Assembly (NCBI GenBank): GCA_030684395.1
Contig: JAUXTT010000017.1
Location: 558,001 to 622,000, forward strand
Origin: Bacteroidota bacterium
GTDB lineage: Bacteria; Bacteroidota; Bacteroidia; B-17B0; Aurantibacillaceae
Length of the DNA stretch: 64,000 bases
Direction of reading: 5' to 3'
Positions 52,585 through 63,368 of this stretch are shown here, in pieces. The notes beneath the pieces are model-generated. The model had not been told where the DNA came from. It made no database searches and saw only the letters and a program-made list of their open reading frames with translations. How positions within the stretch are numbered: the first letter of the stretch is position 1; each line of letters starts with the position of its first letter. The position numbers and the translations under genes were made by a program.

Positions 52585-52625
52585 GCCCTGAACAGTTTCT
52601 TTTTCTTTGTGCTTGTAACAAAAAT

Positions 52626-52665
52626 AAAAAGTGCGCTTCCGATAATCCGAAGCGCACTTTTTATT
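52626..52665. terminator. Bidirectional terminator between converging genes
   Basis: A perfect 14-bp stem (AAAAAGTGCGCTTC / GAAGCGCACTTTTT) with a 9-base loop has A runs on one side and T runs on the other. It can stop transcription from both the VOC gene and the LipL32-like gene. Confidence 0.9.
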
Positions 52666-52685: not shown

Positions 52686-53399
52686 TTATTTTTTTGTCAT
52701 TTGTGTTGAAAGCTCATCAATAGTTTTAGCCATACCAACTCCGGGTAATTTTACAGGTGCTCCAACCTGTGCTATGAAGCTTCCCTGCACTTCTCCTGTT
52801 TTGTAAGTAGTGAATCCAACTCGGTATAAACCTACAACCAATGATTTCGTTGGGTTGCTTGTTTCACTGGTGATACGCATTAATGAATTGTATTTGCTTC
52901 CTGATGGTTGTGCAGGCATTTCTCCTGAATCGTCGTTTGAACCATAAGAATTCCATTTTGCCGTTTTTCCTTTTGTTGCAATATCAGCTATACTGGTAAC
53001 ACCATCAGCTCTTTCAAGCGTGATCCATGTATCAAAATAATTTTTGGTGTCGGTGCTGTTAGCGGTATAATCAGGAGAAACGAAATCAGCCTTATCGGGC
53101 GACATTTTAGAAGGAACCGGTGATGCCATTCGGATTCCTAATTCAGGGGCTACTGCAGGAACCCAAATATATAAATAATAATATTTTTTCCCGTCTCTTG
53201 TTTCATCAGGTGTTGCTCCGGGTTTTACATAGCCATAATAACTAAGTACATCTGTGTAAGGAACTCTTACTTCTTTACCCATTACAGATTTTTTACCCAT
53301 GTCAGCTTTAAATTTGTCCAACGTATCATCCCCACCTACAAATGCGGTTAGAGAAAGGAAAGCGGTAGTAATTACCAGAGAACTTAATAGTTTTTTCAT
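52686..53399 (-). CDS. LipL32-like secreted protein
   Basis: This 237-residue protein has a signal peptide (MKKLLSSLVITTAFLSLTAF), but the lipobox cysteine is absent (TAFVGG at the cleavage region). The mature part follows the sequence pattern of LipL32, the major surface lipoprotein of pathogenic Leptospira: YYGYVKPGATPDETRDGKKY, YLYIWVPAVAPELGIRMASP, FDTWITLERADG, KYNSLMRI, KSLVVGLYRVGFTTYK and GEVQGSFIAQVG occur in the same order and spacing as I recall for that family. In Leptospira the protein is an abundant outer-membrane, Ca2+-binding protein; its role in other bacteria is not established. The gene is monocistronic, with a strong shared terminator. Confidence 0.85.
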   Translation of the reverse strand: MKKLLSSLVITTAFLSLTAFVGGDDTLDKFKADMGKKSVMGKEVRVPYTDVLSYYGYVKPGATPDETRDGKKYYYLYIWVPAVAPELGIRMASPVPSKMSPDKADFVSPDYTANSTDTKNYFDTWITLERADGVTSIADIATKGKTAKWNSYGSNDDSGEMPAQPSGSKYNSLMRITSETSNPTKSLVVGLYRVGFTTYKTGEVQGSFIAQVGAPVKLPGVGMAKTIDELSTQMTKK

Positions 53400-53620
53400 G
53401 ATTAAGATAGATTATATTTTGCCTACTCTTGGATTATAGTTTTCGGCTACCCTATAACAAAACACTAAAATTTGTTAGTTTAAATATATAAAAATTTTGA
53501 AACCCACCTACCCGCGAATAAAAAATCACCTAAAAAATTGATCTTACATTTACAAATGGTGGATAATTTGCCCGTAACTGATTTTCTGGTTGGTTTGTCA
53601 ATTACCCGGGAAGCAATACG
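53400..53620. other. Intergenic region (upstream of the LipL32-like gene)
   Basis: This AT-rich 221-nt stretch should hold the promoter of the LipL32-like gene, but I see no clear TAnnTTTG element on the minus strand. Nothing else was recognised. Confidence 0.4.
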
Positions 53621-56351: not shown

Positions 56352-56595
56352 AAAACGTTTTTTGTAACTACAAGAATATATAAGGCTAAATTAACGATAA
56401 CGTTGAAGAGCGCTTAATAGAAGCTTTATTTGTTTCGTTTTTTAGTAAGAAATTTGATTTTTAGTTTAATTAGTAAGAAGTTTCTTGCCTAAAGCTAAAA
56501 AAGCTAGTATTAAAAAACACGGCAATGAACGTTGATAATATGCATTGCTTAAATTGAGCGTTAATTTATTTTAGCCTATTAGATGTTTTTCCTTG

Positions 56596-56603
56596 TACAT
56601 TTG
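56596..56603 (+). promoter_or_regulatory. -7 promoter element (TACATTTG) before the sigma-54 regulator
   Basis: TACATTTG matches TAnnTTTG and lies downstream of the ATG at 56583 but 9 nt upstream of the TTG at 56613. This argues that translation starts at the TTG. Confidence 0.5.
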
Positions 56604-56612
56604 CGGAGTAAT

Positions 56613-57965
56613 TTGTCAACAAGCAAAACCATATTGATCATTGATGACGAAGAAAAACTTCGCCAACTCCTTTCCAGAATTATAGGTTTGGAAGGCTTTA
56701 CTGTTTTTCAGGCAGCTGATTTGAAAACTGCCCTGAAAACACTGGAGCAGGAAAAGAGTATTGACATCATTCTTACAGATGTGAAATTACCTGATGGAAA
56801 CGGAATAGAGCAATTGGAAAAACTGCGAACTATCTCTCCAATGAGTGAGGTAATTGTAATGACTGCATTCGGAACCATTCACGATGGCGTGTTGGCAATG
56901 AAACACGGGGCCTTCGATTATTTTACGAAAGGCGATGATAACGAACAAATAGTACCGGCCATAAACAGGGCTTTCGAAAAGGTAAAACTTCAAAAAAGAA
57001 TTTTAGACCTTGAAAAGAAGCTGGAAGAAAAACACGGCTTCGAAACCATTTTAGGAAATTCGGAAGCAATAAAGAATGCTATTCACCTTGCAAAAAAAGT
57101 AGCGCCAACAGATTCAAGCGTTTTGTTGGAGGGCGAAACAGGAGTTGGAAAGGAATTGTTTGCTCAGGCTTTGCATTATGGTGGTTCCAGAAAAAACAAA
57201 CCGTTTGTTGCAGTTAATTGCAGCGCTTTTGCAAAGGATCTTTTAGAAAGCGAACTGTTCGGGCATAAAAAGGGAGCTTTTACAGGAGCGGTTTCCGATA
57301 AGAAGGGTTTATTTGAAGAAGCAAACGAAGGAACTATCTTTTTGGATGAAATGGGAGAGATGAACCTCGACCTTCAGGCAAAATTGCTTCGTGTATTGGA
57401 GTCTCAAAGCTTTATTAAAGTTGGCGACACTAAACCAACAAAAGTAAATGTTCGTGTGATTGCAGCAACAAACCGCGATCTCAAGAAAGAAACAGAAAAG
57501 GAACATTTTCGTTTAGATCTGTATTATCGTTTGGCCACGTTTAAAATTAAGATCCCATCACTCAGAGAGCGGAAAGAAGATATTGAGGAATTGGCAAAAC
57601 ATTTTGTAAGTGTTTATTCAGCCAAGCTAAAAAAACGCATTACCCATATCGATAAAGACTTTTTGAAACAACTCCGCAAAAACGAATGGAAAGGAAACAT
57701 TCGTGAACTAAAGAATTGTATTGAAAGATCTGTGATATTAGCAGATGGAAACGAGCTTACATCTGATCTCTTGCCGATAGAAATTCTGAATAACGAATCT
57801 GTAGGAGTCGATAATTCTATTACCAGTTTAGCAAACATGGAAAAGATCCACATTCAAAAAATATTGAGTTTTGCTAAAGGGAACAAAACTAAAGCAGCAG
57901 ATTTACTAGGAATTGGCCTTACCACTTTATACCGTAAGATGGAAGAGTACGGTATAGGGAAATAA
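56613..57965 (+). CDS. Sigma-54-dependent response regulator (NtrC family), likely regulator of the kdp operon
   Basis: It has 450 residues from the TTG at 56613; an ATG at 56583 would add ten non-conserved residues and lies upstream of the promoter-like TACATTTG. A receiver domain (about 1-120) has IDDEEKLRQLL, the phospho-acceptor in DIILTDVKLPDGNG and VMTAFGT. The AAA+ domain (about 135-370) has Walker A GETGVGKELFAQ, the sigma-54 contact loop GAFTGA and Walker B GTIFLDEMGEM. A C-terminal Fis-type helix-turn-helix ends GNKTKAADLLGIGLTTLYRK. Its terminator is followed by the Kdp operon in the same direction; a cognate kinase would be expected downstream, beyond the window. Confidence 0.9.
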   Translation: MSTSKTILIIDDEEKLRQLLSRIIGLEGFTVFQAADLKTALKTLEQEKSIDIILTDVKLPDGNGIEQLEKLRTISPMSEVIVMTAFGTIHDGVLAMKHGAFDYFTKGDDNEQIVPAINRAFEKVKLQKRILDLEKKLEEKHGFETILGNSEAIKNAIHLAKKVAPTDSSVLLEGETGVGKELFAQALHYGGSRKNKPFVAVNCSAFAKDLLESELFGHKKGAFTGAVSDKKGLFEEANEGTIFLDEMGEMNLDLQAKLLRVLESQSFIKVGDTKPTKVNVRVIAATNRDLKKETEKEHFRLDLYYRLATFKIKIPSLRERKEDIEELAKHFVSVYSAKLKKRITHIDKDFLKQLRKNEWKGNIRELKNCIERSVILADGNELTSDLLPIEILNNESVGVDNSITSLANMEKIHIQKILSFAKGNKTKAADLLGIGLTTLYRKMEEYGIGK

Positions 57966-57984
57966 TATCACTTTTTCATTTTGG

Positions 57985-58018
57985 AAAACCCTTTCATTTT
58001 GGAAGGGTTTTGTTTTTT
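57985..58018 (+). terminator. Rho-independent terminator after the sigma-54 regulator
   Basis: AAAACCCTT, loop TCATTTTGG, then AAGGGTTTT (9-bp perfect stem), followed by GTTTTTT. The left arm also resembles the intergenic GAAAACCCT motif. Confidence 0.8.
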
Positions 58019-58131
58019 GCACAAACCACAGAAAACTTCTGAAACGCCTGATAATCGTAGTAATCTGTAATGAAGATGAAAGCCTTTCCTAAAGGAATAA
58101 GATTTGGTATGCCCGAAGAAAAATACAGGTC

Positions 58132-58698
58132 ATGAAAAAGCTAATTGCAATCATCTCTATTCTCTTTTTTTCGGGAATTACAGTTATTAAAGCTCAGGAA
58201 CACCATAGAGGAATTTACCGGAGTGCAGAAGACTTTGTTTCGAGAAAACTCAGTCATGGGTCTAAGCACACACATATAAAACTTCACGAGGTTTTTAAAA
58301 AGGATATTATCGAAGTAAAACACAACGATAGTAATTACGTTTATAAAAAACAAGAGGTTTTTGGTTATAAGGAAAACACCGGAGAAGAGTTTAGAATTCA
58401 TGATTATAAATTTTATCAAATTCTAAATCCCACTGAAAAAATTCTGATTTATAAAATACCACATGGTATACCTCAAAAAGGACAAGCTCAGGCCTACTCT
58501 TATTTTTTCAGTAAAAGTGCCTCGTCTTCAATTCTGCCACTTACACTTAAGGAGATAGAGAATCAATTTGCCGGTAACGTAAAATTTGATGAGTTTATAG
58601 AAACACATTTTAAAAGTGATGGCGATCTCTTAGAATATGATAACATTCATAAAATGTACAAACTAAATCGCCTGTATGAACTAAGTATAATGGACTAA
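58132..58698 (+). CDS. Hypothetical secreted protein at the head of the kdp operon
   Basis: This 188-residue protein has a signal peptide (LIAIISILFFSGITVIKAQ, residues 3-21). The mature part is basic and mostly alpha/beta, without membrane segments or known motifs; it includes HHRGIYRSAEDFVSRKLSH, VFGYKENTGEEFRIHDYKFY and NPTEKILIYKIPHGIPQ. No family was recognised with confidence. It is 10 nt upstream of the small membrane ORF that precedes kdpF, so it is probably co-transcribed with kdpFABC and may act in the periplasm when K+ is low. That role is inference from position. Confidence 0.65.
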   Translation: MKKLIAIISILFFSGITVIKAQEHHRGIYRSAEDFVSRKLSHGSKHTHIKLHEVFKKDIIEVKHNDSNYVYKKQEVFGYKENTGEEFRIHDYKFYQILNPTEKILIYKIPHGIPQKGQAQAYSYFFSKSASSSILPLTLKEIENQFAGNVKFDEFIETHFKSDGDLLEYDNIHKMYKLNRLYELSIMD

Positions 58699-58708
58699 AA
58701 CAAGCATC

Positions 58709-58801
58709 ATGGAAACTTTAATGATAATAGTATTAGCAACAGCAACAATTAGTTGTTTCTGGTTGATGAGAAAGAGTATAGATTTTTTCGAAAACATTTA
58801 A
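58709..58801 (+). CDS. Very small membrane protein before KdpF
   Basis: A 30-residue frame starts at ATG 58709 and ends at TAA 58799-58801. It encodes METLMIIVLATATISCFWLM and then RKSIDFFENI: one membrane helix followed by a short amphipathic, charged tail. It sits 10 nt after the preceding gene and 12 nt before kdpF, in operon spacing and with a size like KdpF. I believe similar short ORFs occur before kdpF in other Bacteroidota kdp operons, but I could not check this here. It could be an additional small subunit of the Kdp complex. Confidence 0.5.
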   Translation: METLMIIVLATATISCFWLMRKSIDFFENI

Positions 58802-58813
58802 ACACGTAAGATC

Positions 58814-58891
58814 ATGATAGCATTATTGATATTGGCAATTGTGGTATTTGTTTACCTCGTTTACGTACTCTTAAAACCTGAAAAATTTTGA
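58814..58891 (+). CDS. kdpF: KdpF, small stabilising subunit of the K+-transporting ATPase
   Basis: A 25-residue frame starts at ATG 58814 and ends at TGA 58889-58891. It encodes MIALLILAIVVFVYLVYVLL followed by KPEKF. A single helix ending in YxLxxPEKF is the signature of KdpF, which helps hold the KdpABC complex together in the inner membrane. It is 37 nt upstream of kdpA, in the normal F-A-B-C order. Confidence 0.9.
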   Translation: MIALLILAIVVFVYLVYVLLKPEKF

Positions 58892-58928
58892 GCTGTAAAA
58901 AAATTCAAACTGAAATAAAACAGAAACC

Positions 58929-60626
58929 ATGAACACAGAATTAGCAGGAGTTATCGCCACCTTTTTACTAACCGTGGTTTTAGCCATCCCACTCGGGAAA
59001 TACATAGCTAAAGTTTTTAGCGGAGAAAAAACTTTATTGGATTTTTTGGCTCCGGTAGAACGATTTATTTTTCGCATATGTGGCATTGATGTCAATAAGC
59101 AAATGACCTGGAAACAACATTTACTGGCTTTGCTTGCAATTAACATGCTTTGGTTTGTATATGCATTTGTAATGCTCCTTACACAGGGAAGTTTGTTTTT
59201 AAACCCGGATGGAAATCCATCCATGTCGCCTGATCTTAGTTTTAACACAGCAATTAGTTTTTTGGTGAACTGCAACCTGCAGCATTACTCAGGTGAAACA
59301 GGTTTAACATACTTAACTCAACTGGGTGTTATTACTTTTTTACAATTTGTATCTGCAGCAACAGGTATTGCCGCTTTAGTAGTGGTGTTTAATACCATGC
59401 GCGAACAAAGTAAAGACGGACTTGGAAATTTTTTCGACATTTTTCTCAAATCCCTCACCCGGATCTTAATTCCTATAAGTATTGTTATTGCAACATTATT
59501 GGTAATTAGCGGAACACCCTCATCATTTGATGGGAAAGACATTGTTAGAACACTGGAAGGAGAGACTGTTCAGGTATCGCGTGGACCAGCTGCCGGAATG
59601 ATTGCTATTAAACATTTAGGAACAAACGGAGGTGGTTGGTTTGGGGTTAACTCCGCACATCCACTTGAGAATCCGAACTACTTTACCAATGTGGTTGAAA
59701 TGATTTCACAGGTGTTACTTCCAATTGCCTTGATTTTTGCAATGGGTTATTATATTAAACGTAAAAAGTTAGCATATGTAATTTTTGGTGTGATGACTTT
59801 TGGTATGTTGATGTTTTTAATTCCAACCATGATAGCAGAAACAAATGGAAATCCGGCCATTGCAAAAATGGGCATTGATCAAAGTCTGGGAAGCATGGAA
59901 GGGAAAGAGGTTCGTTTTGGTTCACAAGCTTCTGCGTATTGGAGTATAGTAACCACTGTTATTTCAACGGGCTCGGTAAATTCTATGCACGACAGTTCCA
60001 TGCCAGTTTCAAACACCATGCAGTTATTAGGAATGATGACCAATGCTTTTTACGGAGGCTGTGGAGTAGGAATATTAAACTACTACATCTTTATGATCAT
60101 AGCTGTTTTTATTTCGGGTTTAATGGTAGGAAGAACACCTGAATTTTTGGGAAGAAAAATAGAAGCGCGTGAAATGAAAATTGCAACCATCATTGCATTA
60201 CTACATCCCTTTCTGATTTTAGTTGGAACAGCGTTTTCATCTTATGTATTTACAAAAGATACTTCAGTAGGATGGTTGAATAACCCCGGTTATCACGGGT
60301 ATTCGGAAATGTTATATGAATACACATCGGCGGCTGCAAACAACGGCAGCGGTATGGAAGGTCTTGGAGATAACAATTGGTTTTGGAACATAAGTACAGG
60401 ATTTGTTCTGATACTCGGAAGATTTCTTCCAATTATTGGCCCGGTAGCCATTGCAGGAATTTTAGCAAACAAAAAAATTATTCCCGAATCAGCAGGAACG
60501 CTTCGTACCGACACAGGAATATTTGGTGTAATGACTTATGCAGTAATAATGATATTGGCAGCTTTGGCATTTTTTCCGGCACTGGTTCTCGGACCATTGT
60601 CAGAGTATTTCACATTATACAATTAA
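58929..60626 (+). CDS. kdpA: Potassium-transporting ATPase subunit A (K+ channel-like subunit)
   Basis: This 565-residue inner-membrane protein has about ten helices. It binds and conducts K+ into the KdpFABC complex. The selectivity-filter-like loops are visible: [20 protein letters not shown] (about residue 117), [20 protein letters not shown] (about 234), [16 protein letters not shown] (about 375) and [20 protein letters not shown] (about 470). Length and order are normal. kdpB follows after 13 nt. Confidence 0.96.
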
Positions 60627-60639
60627 GAGATTAGAAATT

Positions 60640-62745
60640 ATGAGCAGTAAAGAAAACAAATCCTTGTTTCAGAAAGACCTTATCGTAGAGGCTTTGAAAC
60701 AAGCATTCATTAAGCTTCACCCGAAGACAATGATTAAAAACCCGGTGATGTTTACTGTGGAAATAGGAACATTTGTAATGTTGATTGTGTGTGCAAGTGT
60801 TATGTTTAATAACGATGGCACACAGGGAAGTCTTGTGTATAATTTGTTTGTATTCGCTGTATTATTTCTTACGCTGCTCTTCGCCAATTTTGCAGAAGCT
60901 ATTGCAGAAGCAAGAGGGAAAGCACAGGCAGAGTCATTAAGAAAAACACGCGAAGAAACTCCGGCTAAATTGATAGCACCGGTAGGAGAATTATATGTAA
61001 ACGAAGTACAGATGATAAGCTCATCACAACTGAAAAAGGGCGATGTGTTTTTGTGCGAAACCGGCGACATTATTCCTACCGATGGTGAAATTATTGAAGG
61101 TCTTGCAACTATTGATGAATCGGCCATCACAGGAGAGTCAGCTCCCGTAATTCGTGAATCAGGTGGAGATAAATCAAGCGTTACCGGCGGAACAAAAGTA
61201 CTGAGCGATAAAATTAAAGTACGGGTAACTTCAGAACCCGGCGAATCTTTTTTGGATAAAATGATTGCTTTGGTGGAAGGAGCGAGCAGGCAAAAAACAC
61301 CAAACGAAATTGCTTTAACCATTTTGTTGGCAGGATTTACATTGGTCTTCATCATTGTTTGTGTAACGTTAAAACCATTTGCAGACTACGCTAAAGCACC
61401 GATTACAATCGCAGCATTGATCTCTTTGTTTGTGTGTTTGATCCCAACAACAATAGGAGGCCTGCTTTCTGCAATTGGTATTGCCGGAATGGACAGAGCA
61501 TTAAGAGCAAACGTTATTACCAAATCGGGTAAAGCCGTTGAAACAGCAGGCGACATTGATGTATTGTTGTTGGATAAAACAGGCACTATCACTATTGGAA
61601 ACCGTAAGGCAACAAAGTTTTATCCTGCTACTGGAATAAGCGAAGAACAATTAATTGAAGTAAGTATTCTTAGTGCAATTTCTGATGAAACACCCGAAGG
61701 GAAATCTATTGTTGAGCTGGGAGAGCAAAGGTTTTCAGATAAGGAAGAAAAATTTAAAAGTCCGAAATGGATCAAAGATCTGAAAGGAAATCTTAAGGAA
61801 CAAAGTGAAACGTTTCATGTGTTTCGTTTTACTGCCGAAACAAGATGCAGTGGAATAGATATTGGAGATAATAAACGTATTCGCAAAGGAGCTACCGATT
61901 CCATCAGAAAAATTGTTGAAACTGCAGGTAACAGTTTTCCTCGCGAACTCGAAATGGTTGTAAAACAAATCTCTTCTGCGGGCGGAACACCTTTGGTTGT
62001 TTGCGAAAATGAAAAAGCCATTGGTGTAATTGAATTGCAGGATATTATCAAGCCCGGGATAAAAGAACGTTTCGACCGCCTTCGTAAGATGGGTGTAAAA
62101 ACAGTAATGGTTACCGGAGATAATCCCTTAACAGCAAAATACATTGCAGAGAAAGCCGGTGTAGATGATTATATAGCTGAGGCCAAGCCCGAGGATAAAA
62201 TGAACTATATCAAAAAGGAACAGCAGAGCGGAAAGCTGGTGGCGATGATGGGCGACGGAACCAACGATGCGCCGGCACTTGCTCAAGCCGACGTTGGCGT
62301 GGCCATGAACAGTGGAACACAAGCGGCAAAAGAGGCAGGTAACATGGTTGATCTGGATAACGATCCAACAAAACTAATTGAGATTGTTGAAATTGGAAAA
62401 CAACTTTTAATTACAAGAGGAACACTTACTACATTCTCTATTGCAAACGATGTGGCAAAATACTTTGCAATTGTACCTGCTTTATTTATTACATCTATTC
62501 CTGCTCTTCAGGGATTGAACATAATGAATTTAAAAAGTCCGGAGAGCGCCGTTTTATCGGCAGTTATTTTTAACGCGATCATTATTCCGATACTCATTCC
62601 TTTGGCGCTTCGCGGGGTAGAGTATAAACCAATTGGTGCAAGCGCATTGCTAAGAAGAAATTTATTGATCTATGGATTGGGAGGAGTAATTGTTCCCTTC
62701 ATAGGAATCAAATTAATAGACATGTTAGTAGGATTATTTTTTTAA
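60640..62745 (+). CDS. kdpB: Potassium-transporting ATPase ATP-binding subunit B
   Basis: This 701-residue P-type ATPase powers high-affinity K+ uptake. It has the actuator motif [20 protein letters not shown] (about residue 160), the membrane motif [20 protein letters not shown] (about residue 270), the phosphorylated Asp in [15 protein letters not shown] (about residue 310), and the hinge [20 protein letters not shown] (about residue 535). All are intact, so the pump should be active. It lies between kdpA and kdpC in the usual order; 62 nt separate it from kdpC. Confidence 0.97.
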
Positions 62746-62807
62746 AACACCACGAGGTAGCATTGATACAATTAAGAAATAATTAATCATCAAATCAATA
62801 AACTGAA

Positions 62808-63368
62808 ATGAGAACATATATTTTACCATCGTTAAAATTGACACTTGTGTTAATCATAGTTTGTTCAGTTTTGTATCCGTTGCTTATATCAGCAATAGGG
62901 AAATTTACCCATGATGATGGAGCAGGAGTGAAGGCTTATGAACACGGTTTAGTTGTTGGCTATGAAAACGTAGGGCAGAAATTTATAGCTGATACTTATT
63001 TTCAAGGAAGACCATCTGCTGTTGATTATAACGCAGCGGGTTCTGCAGGCTCCAATAAAGGACCATCCAATCCTGACTACTTAAAAATTGTTCAGGAAAG
63101 AATAGATACTTTTTTGATTCACAATCCGGGAATAAAAAAATCAGAGATTCCTAGTGATTTAGTTACAGCAAGTGGAAGTGGTTTAGATCCTCACATTTCT
63201 ATTCAAGCTGCAAAAGTACAGGTTCCGCGTATTGCTAAGTTGAGAAACAGAACCGAGAAAGAAATATATCAACTTATTGATAAAGTAAAAGAAGAACCAA
63301 TGCTGAGTGTTTTTGGCCCGGAAAGAATTAATGTGTTGAAATTAAACATTGCATTGAATACACTTTAA
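62808..63368 (+). CDS. kdpC: Potassium-transporting ATPase subunit C
   Basis: This 186-residue protein has one N-terminal membrane helix (LKLTLVLIIVCSVLYPLLIS) and an extracytoplasmic domain that helps K+ entry and complex assembly. Family motifs are FIADTYFQGRPSAVDYNAAG, SAGSNKGPSNPDYLKIVQER, LVTASGSGLDPHISIQAAKV and QVPRIAKLRN. It is complete. A weak hairpin (CTTCC-ATTTC-GGAAG, 63390-63404) lies just after the stop. A porin-like gene follows after 154 nt and is probably part of the same regulon. Confidence 0.95.
   Translation: MRTYILPSLKLTLVLIIVCSVLYPLLISAIGKFTHDDGAGVKAYEHGLVVGYENVGQKFIADTYFQGRPSAVDYNAAGSAGSNKGPSNPDYLKIVQERIDTFLIHNPGIKKSEIPSDLVTASGSGLDPHISIQAAKVQVPRIAKLRNRTEKEIYQLIDKVKEEPMLSVFGPERINVLKLNIALNTL

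Follow-up and report, generated by a model that had tools for sequence, protein, structure and literature searches.

In disease-causing Leptospira, LipL32 is more abundant than any other lipoprotein. Its Ca2+ ligands are given as Asp132, Thr133, Asp164, Asp165 and Tyr178 in passages of PMC5566480 and PMC8951592, and the protein is reported in sections of PMC3544172 to lie mostly below the cell surface. Relatives outside Leptospira have been described as well: PMC4080168, published in 2014, reports relatives of the Pseudoalteromonas tunicata protein PtlL32 in eleven other non-Leptospira species, with four Bacteroidetes listed in Table 2, and already describes Bacteroidetes homologues with a patchy distribution and proposes their transfer. 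The view that LipL32 has few homologues outside Leptospira, which was taken in an earlier note on the DNA studied here, is therefore outdated. In the searched literature, PMC4080168 is the one paper that we found on LipL32 homologues in Bacteroidota.

The RNA families DUF805 (RF03081) and DUF805b (RF02914) represent the second described system of relevance. Both are classed as cis-regulatory by Rfam and were reportedly first described by Weinberg et al. 2017. Among the matches listed, the searched literature, outside which the original description of these RNAs falls, contains no mention of DUF805b, "DUF805 motif" or "DUF805 RNA", and we found no published report in it that links lipL32 to a DUF805 or DUF805b leader.

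Here, we describe a locus at which both systems meet. The window, i.e. the whole stretch of 64,000 nucleotides that was analysed, derives from a Bacteroidota genome and contains a gene for a LipL32-family protein that is preceded by a DUF805b-like leader (Table 1). We consider it fairly probable that this gene encodes a soluble, Ca2+-binding LipL32 of the cell envelope, the translation of which is tuned by the orphan leader RNA.

Table 1. Features of the lipL32 locus in window coordinates.
Feature	Position	Strand	Details
Terminator-like hairpin separating lipL32 from the VOC-like gene that converges on it	52625..52663	.	-23.6 kcal/mol, z -8.8
LipL32-family protein, 237 aa	52686..53399	-	Sec-type signal, lipobox absent; PF12103 at residues 42-223
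Spacer from the end of the GAGUAGG core to the start codon, 22 nt	53400..53421	-	core pattern; 18-29 nt in 16 lipL32 leaders
Leader RNA, DUF805b-like, Rfam clan CL00115	53420..53456	-	cmscan RF02914, 30.4 bits, E 6.5e-7 (321 bases)
Stem P1, UUAUAG/CUAUAA	53457-53452/53439-53434	-	6 pairs in the window copy
Pseudoknot P2, GCC/GGC	53447-53445/53423-53421	-	our own reading; the Rfam structure line has P1 only

The predicted protein matches the Pfam family PF12103 (Lipl32) over profile positions 1-179 of 179 with 259.2 bits and an E-value of 2.2e-77 (cut-off 25 bits), and PF12103 is the sole Pfam family found up to E 1. A sequence search of the PDB with the ORF 52686-53399 yielded three distinct sequences, all of them LipL32, at E-values of about 1e-36. 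Compared to LipL32 of L. interrogans, 84 of 175 aligned residues (48%) are identical. The earlier note had taken the protein for a LipL32 homologue and had named a profile search against PF12103 and structural modelling as checks; the significant profile match and the degree of identity bear out the assignment. Hereby, the score against the NCBIfam LipL32 equivalog NF038394 (148.6 bits) stays below the cut-off of 300, so that the window protein is to be regarded as a member of the PF12103 family and not as LipL32 sensu stricto. The open frame around the 237-aa ORF comprises 241 aa, which limits any upstream extension to at most four codons.

To obtain a structural model we used AlphaFold2 with a 27-row alignment, which resulted in a mean pLDDT of 79.4 and a pTM of 0.76. 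In a Foldseek search of the PDB with this model, LipL32 chains are the only clear matches (E 1e-21), and alignment to 2zz8_A with VIA-align gives a Z of 18.6 and an rmsd of 3.4 for 191 aligned residues. Other folds, including the calpain C2-like domain, capsids and CBMs, were rejected with Z values under 9, the next unrelated chain reaching 8.9 compared to 18.6 for LipL32. Judged by this model, the window protein is predicted to adopt the LipL32 jelly-roll fold. The equivalents of the five Ca2+ ligands are D123, T124, D156, D157 and Y170; they are identical in all 27 Bacteroidota sequences (the window protein and 26 further loci), which suggests Ca2+ binding. The motif NDDSGE, which replaces the acidic run of the Leptospira protein, is invariant or nearly so among the Bacteroidota set. 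The modelling named as a check has thus returned the LipL32 fold, and the set of ligand residues is complete.

The leader, which the earlier note had overlooked, was spotted by listing the 110 nt before lipL32 start codons. It carries the conserved blocks CCGAAAA and GAGUAGG, and the corresponding DNA pattern (CCGAAAA, a variable stretch, GAGTAGG) occurs once in the window, compared to no occurrence in 100 shuffles. With 30.4 bits the window leader lies about 5 bits below the RF02914 gathering score of 35.6 bits and is not listed in a whole-window Rfam scan at gathering level, while the leader of the same-genus ortholog (L005) scores 35.6 bits and was counted as over. Of 26 lipL32 genes (L012 was not scorable, and L010 offered just 109 nt upstream), 16 show the core pattern within 200 nt upstream, 18-29 nt before the start codon. 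The cmscan analysis, for which L005, L006 and L014 were represented by their copies L003, L002 and L031, finds the leader in the identical 16 genes and not in the identical 10. L031, the copy of L014, belongs to Flavobacterium aciduliphilum DSM 25663. Eight of the 16 leaders reach an Rfam gathering score and the other eight, including that of the window, fall under it. Hereby, the leaders of L007, L008, L017 and L030 score 69.6-80.6 bits against DUF805 (gathering score 51.1), and besides L005 those of L009 (40.9), L014 (41.7) and L016 (39.2) exceed the DUF805b score. In 14 control genomes no leader match was obtained at E 0.001, and at E 10 all 14 showed weak matches, none of them over the cut-off. 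Leader presence changes five times on a 25-row tree which is unrooted, so that gain and loss are not separable in this count. At another locus, a near-threshold match to the Rfam Whalefall-1 RNA lies about 0.8 kb away from lipL32 (L023:5129-5163(-), 33.4 compared to 37 bits).

To evaluate the structure of the leader, 41 copies were compared, 21 from upstream of lipL32 and 20 from upstream of other genes (six genomes); L059 (20.6 bits) and L100 (24.2 bits) were excluded since the core pattern is missing. Stem P1 shows at least three contiguous pairs in 40 of the 41 leaders, with 12 pairing types, and in the exception, L043, it pairs only with one extra A in the loop. In shuffle statistics that ignore the kinship of the rows, the total paired run of P1 amounts to 151, whereas 5000 shuffles average 82 and peak at 115 (0 of 5000 reach 151); for the 16 lipL32 leaders alone it is 65 compared to a mean of 39 (1 of 5000 reaches 65), and for ten spread rows 44 compared to 23 (0 of 5000). 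When the arms of the 16 lipL32 leaders are slid by 1-3 positions, the run drops to 31, 23 and 23. For P2, the pairs are CC/GG in 33 leaders, CU/AG in 4 and CU/GG in 4, and the broken combination CC/AG does not occur. Covariation of the P1 arms in 12 pairing types along with fixed loop blocks indicates an RNA fold.

The window genome contains six copies of the leader (E 0.001), each located 17-22 nt before an ATG. Besides the LipL32-family protein, the respective products are a T9SS-sorted protein, an OmpA protein, two further proteins of 214 and 279 aa, and a protein of 375 aa with a match to HBL, a family of helical pore-formers (33.8 bits; the cut-off is 29.1). The five genes other than lipL32 are located on L053-L055, L057 and L058, for instance at L055:361-1485(-). 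Within the window's family, 69 of 87 genomes carry the leader RNA compared to 3 with lipL32, and within the Flavobacterium genus the numbers are 169 and 12 of 199 genomes. The leader is hence a resident element which lipL32 shares and is not specific to LipL32; as it is present in many genomes without lipL32, it tells little about the task of the protein. Elsewhere, leader-bearing genes encode DUF805 proteins (L092, L116, L129), a TM2 protein (L128) and many proteins without a family, with a PKD protein also among the exported products, and the downstream genes show no single theme. An exported-protein regulon was considered and rejected, since signal peptides, scored by a home-made rule, were found in 10 of 29 cases compared to 71 of 171 background ORFs. 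In Flavobacterium-genus genomes, DUF805b leaders are also seen before genes for PixA-type inclusion body proteins (L112, L114). Others precede genes for small GG-stretch peptides resembling secreted peptide precursors (L120, L125, L126, L131, L104), of which L120 gave no Pfam or NCBIfam match and L126 no NCBIfam match.

In principle, the upstream motif could act without sensing any signal, be it as a constitutive leader that enhances translation or is protective, or as a DNA element. The constant distance to the start codon would be in line with such a role, as would the diversity of the downstream genes, PixA-type proteins and GG-stretch peptides included. The covarying P1 arms around fixed loop blocks argue for a folded RNA instead, and Rfam types both families as cis-regulatory. 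We therefore regard this explanation as a serious but rather unlikely one, and favor a leader RNA that tunes translation.

Turning to the protein, the lack of a lipobox cysteine asserted in the earlier note holds, as the 237 residues do not include a single cysteine. The trait is not peculiar to the window genome: 25 of the 27 sequences show no lipobox string (pattern [LVI][ASTVI][GAS]C, first 35 residues), so that the soluble form is the rule within this set. The string I-V-A-C is present in the remaining two, L012 and L025. In L012 the start is missing from the contig and further hydrophobic residues follow the string, while L025 could be a lipoprotein. By eye, AQ directly precedes the conserved LDKF-type start in 24 of 27 sequences (the exceptions being the window protein, L005 and L015), an ending that resembles a signal peptidase I site. 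In L019 the start codon that would give a full signal is not clear, which leaves the N-terminus uncertain. Export of the window protein by the T9SS was rejected because a sorting domain was not found in it, Pfam giving PF12103 alone.

Another possibility is that the protein is secreted or retained at the surface as an adhesin for host or algal matrix, as PtlL32 of P. tunicata, with the leader merely timing its production. According to PMC4080168, deletion of ptlL32 lowers Matrigel attachment 10-fold and reduces algal colonisation, a phenotype with which an adhesion role fits; furthermore, exported proteins (T9SS-sorted, OmpA, PKD) are among the products of genes that bear the leader. The window protein, however, possesses neither a lipid anchor nor a sorting domain, and several lipL32 loci stem, by their titles, from groundwater, pond or lake MAGs. 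Moreover, the missing anchor fits a periplasmic role, as does the mostly subsurface location reported for Leptospira LipL32 itself in PMC3544172. Thus, we consider adhesion an improbable explanation and prefer a soluble envelope protein.

A contig scan with six peptide patterns, aimed at close relatives, yielded 26 loci, all of them from Bacteroidota by their titles, with proteins that are 61-86% identical to that of the window. Within the Bacteroidota sampled, the window's family has PF12103 in 3 of its 87 genomes (in the sample the same 87 constitute its whole order), a draw of 395 genomes over the phylum has it in 1, which is the window's own, and the Flavobacterium genus (to which F. aciduliphilum belongs) has it in 12 of 199. 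Two of these 12, G554 and G646 (L045, L046, L048-L050), hold lipL32 in split pieces only, possibly due to decay or sequencing errors, and another genome of the genus, G651, holds two copies on separate contigs, L044 with a leader and L047 at a contig end that cuts off its upstream region. No lipL32 relatives were found in limited collections of plasmids, phages and viral contigs, and transfer by phage or plasmid was rejected on these grounds. A tree of 26 Bacteroidota rows, from which the long branch L025 was left out, places the window together with the same-genus L005 (100/99) and the same-family L006 elsewhere; a constraint that joins all three is mildly rejected (AU p 0.037), the group having been picked after the first tree. 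A recent arrival of lipL32 from Leptospira or another pathogen, to which the patchy spread and this mild rejection could be taken to point, is nevertheless very improbable given that the Bacteroidota sequences are much more similar to the window protein than LipL32 is with its 48%, that the GC content is 0.389 for the gene compared to 0.367 for the window, and that the limited collections of plasmids, phages and viral contigs contributed no relatives.

With respect to the genomic setting, the earlier note had described lipL32 as standing alone and followed by a strong terminator. None of 200 shuffles reaches the folding energy of the hairpin at 52625..52663, and the hairpin is real by this measure, though a consensus terminator scan omits it. 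The gene does stand alone in that, by eye, no neighbour recurs over 24 loci except within the Flavobacterium group, and inferring a function from neighbours was rejected for this reason. Several Flavobacterium-group loci share a gene order that we take to be dnaN, lipL32, mnmE. In the sister species (L051:4155-12103), lipL32 has a Kup-BBP2 porin block on one side and an NtrC-type regulator on the other, with a HAMP kinase also present. The window contains, within 10 kb (56583-63368), an NtrC-type regulator that is 73% identical to that of the sister species along with a block of KdpA, a P-type ATPase and KdpC; the gene order around lipL32 differs between the window and L051. As it comes from two genomes of a single genus, we keep a link between lipL32 and K+ uptake as a lead.

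Taken together, we favor a soluble LipL32 under leader RNA control. Hereby, the LipL32-family protein would be made with a Sec signal peptide that is cleaved by signal peptidase I, and the mature protein would be released to the periplasm, possibly beyond, as a lipid-free Ca2+-binding jelly-roll. In the mRNA leader, an H-type pseudoknot of the DUF805/DUF805b clan would end some 20 nt short of the start codon, within the ribosome-loading region, and its folding, triggered by some ligand or protein, would raise or lower translation of lipL32 and of the other leader-bearing genes. The assignment to PF12103, the modelled fold, the Ca2+-site residues, the missing lipobox and the leader itself with its covarying stem are established by the analysis, while transcription of the leader, processing and location of the protein, Ca2+ binding as well as direction and trigger of the control are what we infer here. 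More tentatively, the LipL32 family as a whole may have originated as soluble Ca2+-binding envelope proteins of environmental bacteria, which many Bacteroidota wired into a riboswitch-like DUF805-clan regulon and which acquired lipidation and their extreme abundance in Leptospira later. If so, the signal of the leader RNA would reveal the condition that requires LipL32-type proteins. As the fold and the Ca2+ residues are kept without an anchor, and the gene lies behind a defined RNA, the basic function of LipL32 becomes testable in cultured Flavobacterium. Conversely, the orphan DUF805/DUF805b RNAs gain a target from a family with solved structures.

Compared to LipL32 of pathogenic Leptospira (PDB 2ZZ8, 3FRL, 2WFK), the window protein is alike in its predicted fold, 48% identity, the five Ca2+ ligand residues and a C-terminal helix that is likewise present in the model. 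Unlike the Leptospira protein, which is lipidated at Cys20 according to a passage of PMC5566480, it has no cysteine, and it carries NDDSGE instead of the acidic run DDDDDGDD. PtlL32 and its Bacteroidetes orthologs in PMC4080168 (Cellulophaga, Formosa, Ulvibacter) are also non-Leptospira relatives with patchy distribution; the words signal peptide, lipobox, cysteine and lipidat are absent from the main text of that paper. While such homologues and their spread have thus been known since 2014, the DUF805-clan leader before lipL32 is apparently the unpublished part. The class I preQ1 riboswitch, with about 34 nt, a stem-loop and a tail pseudoknot (PMC7266159), is similar to the leader in size and shape only, and cmscan does not report its Rfam family at the window leader. 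Finally, the DUF805b and DUF805 RNAs, both named after DUF805 genes, have the P1 stem, the CCGAAAA and GAGUAGG blocks and the place before the start codon in common with the lipL32 leaders, with the window copy 5 bits under the DUF805b gathering score.
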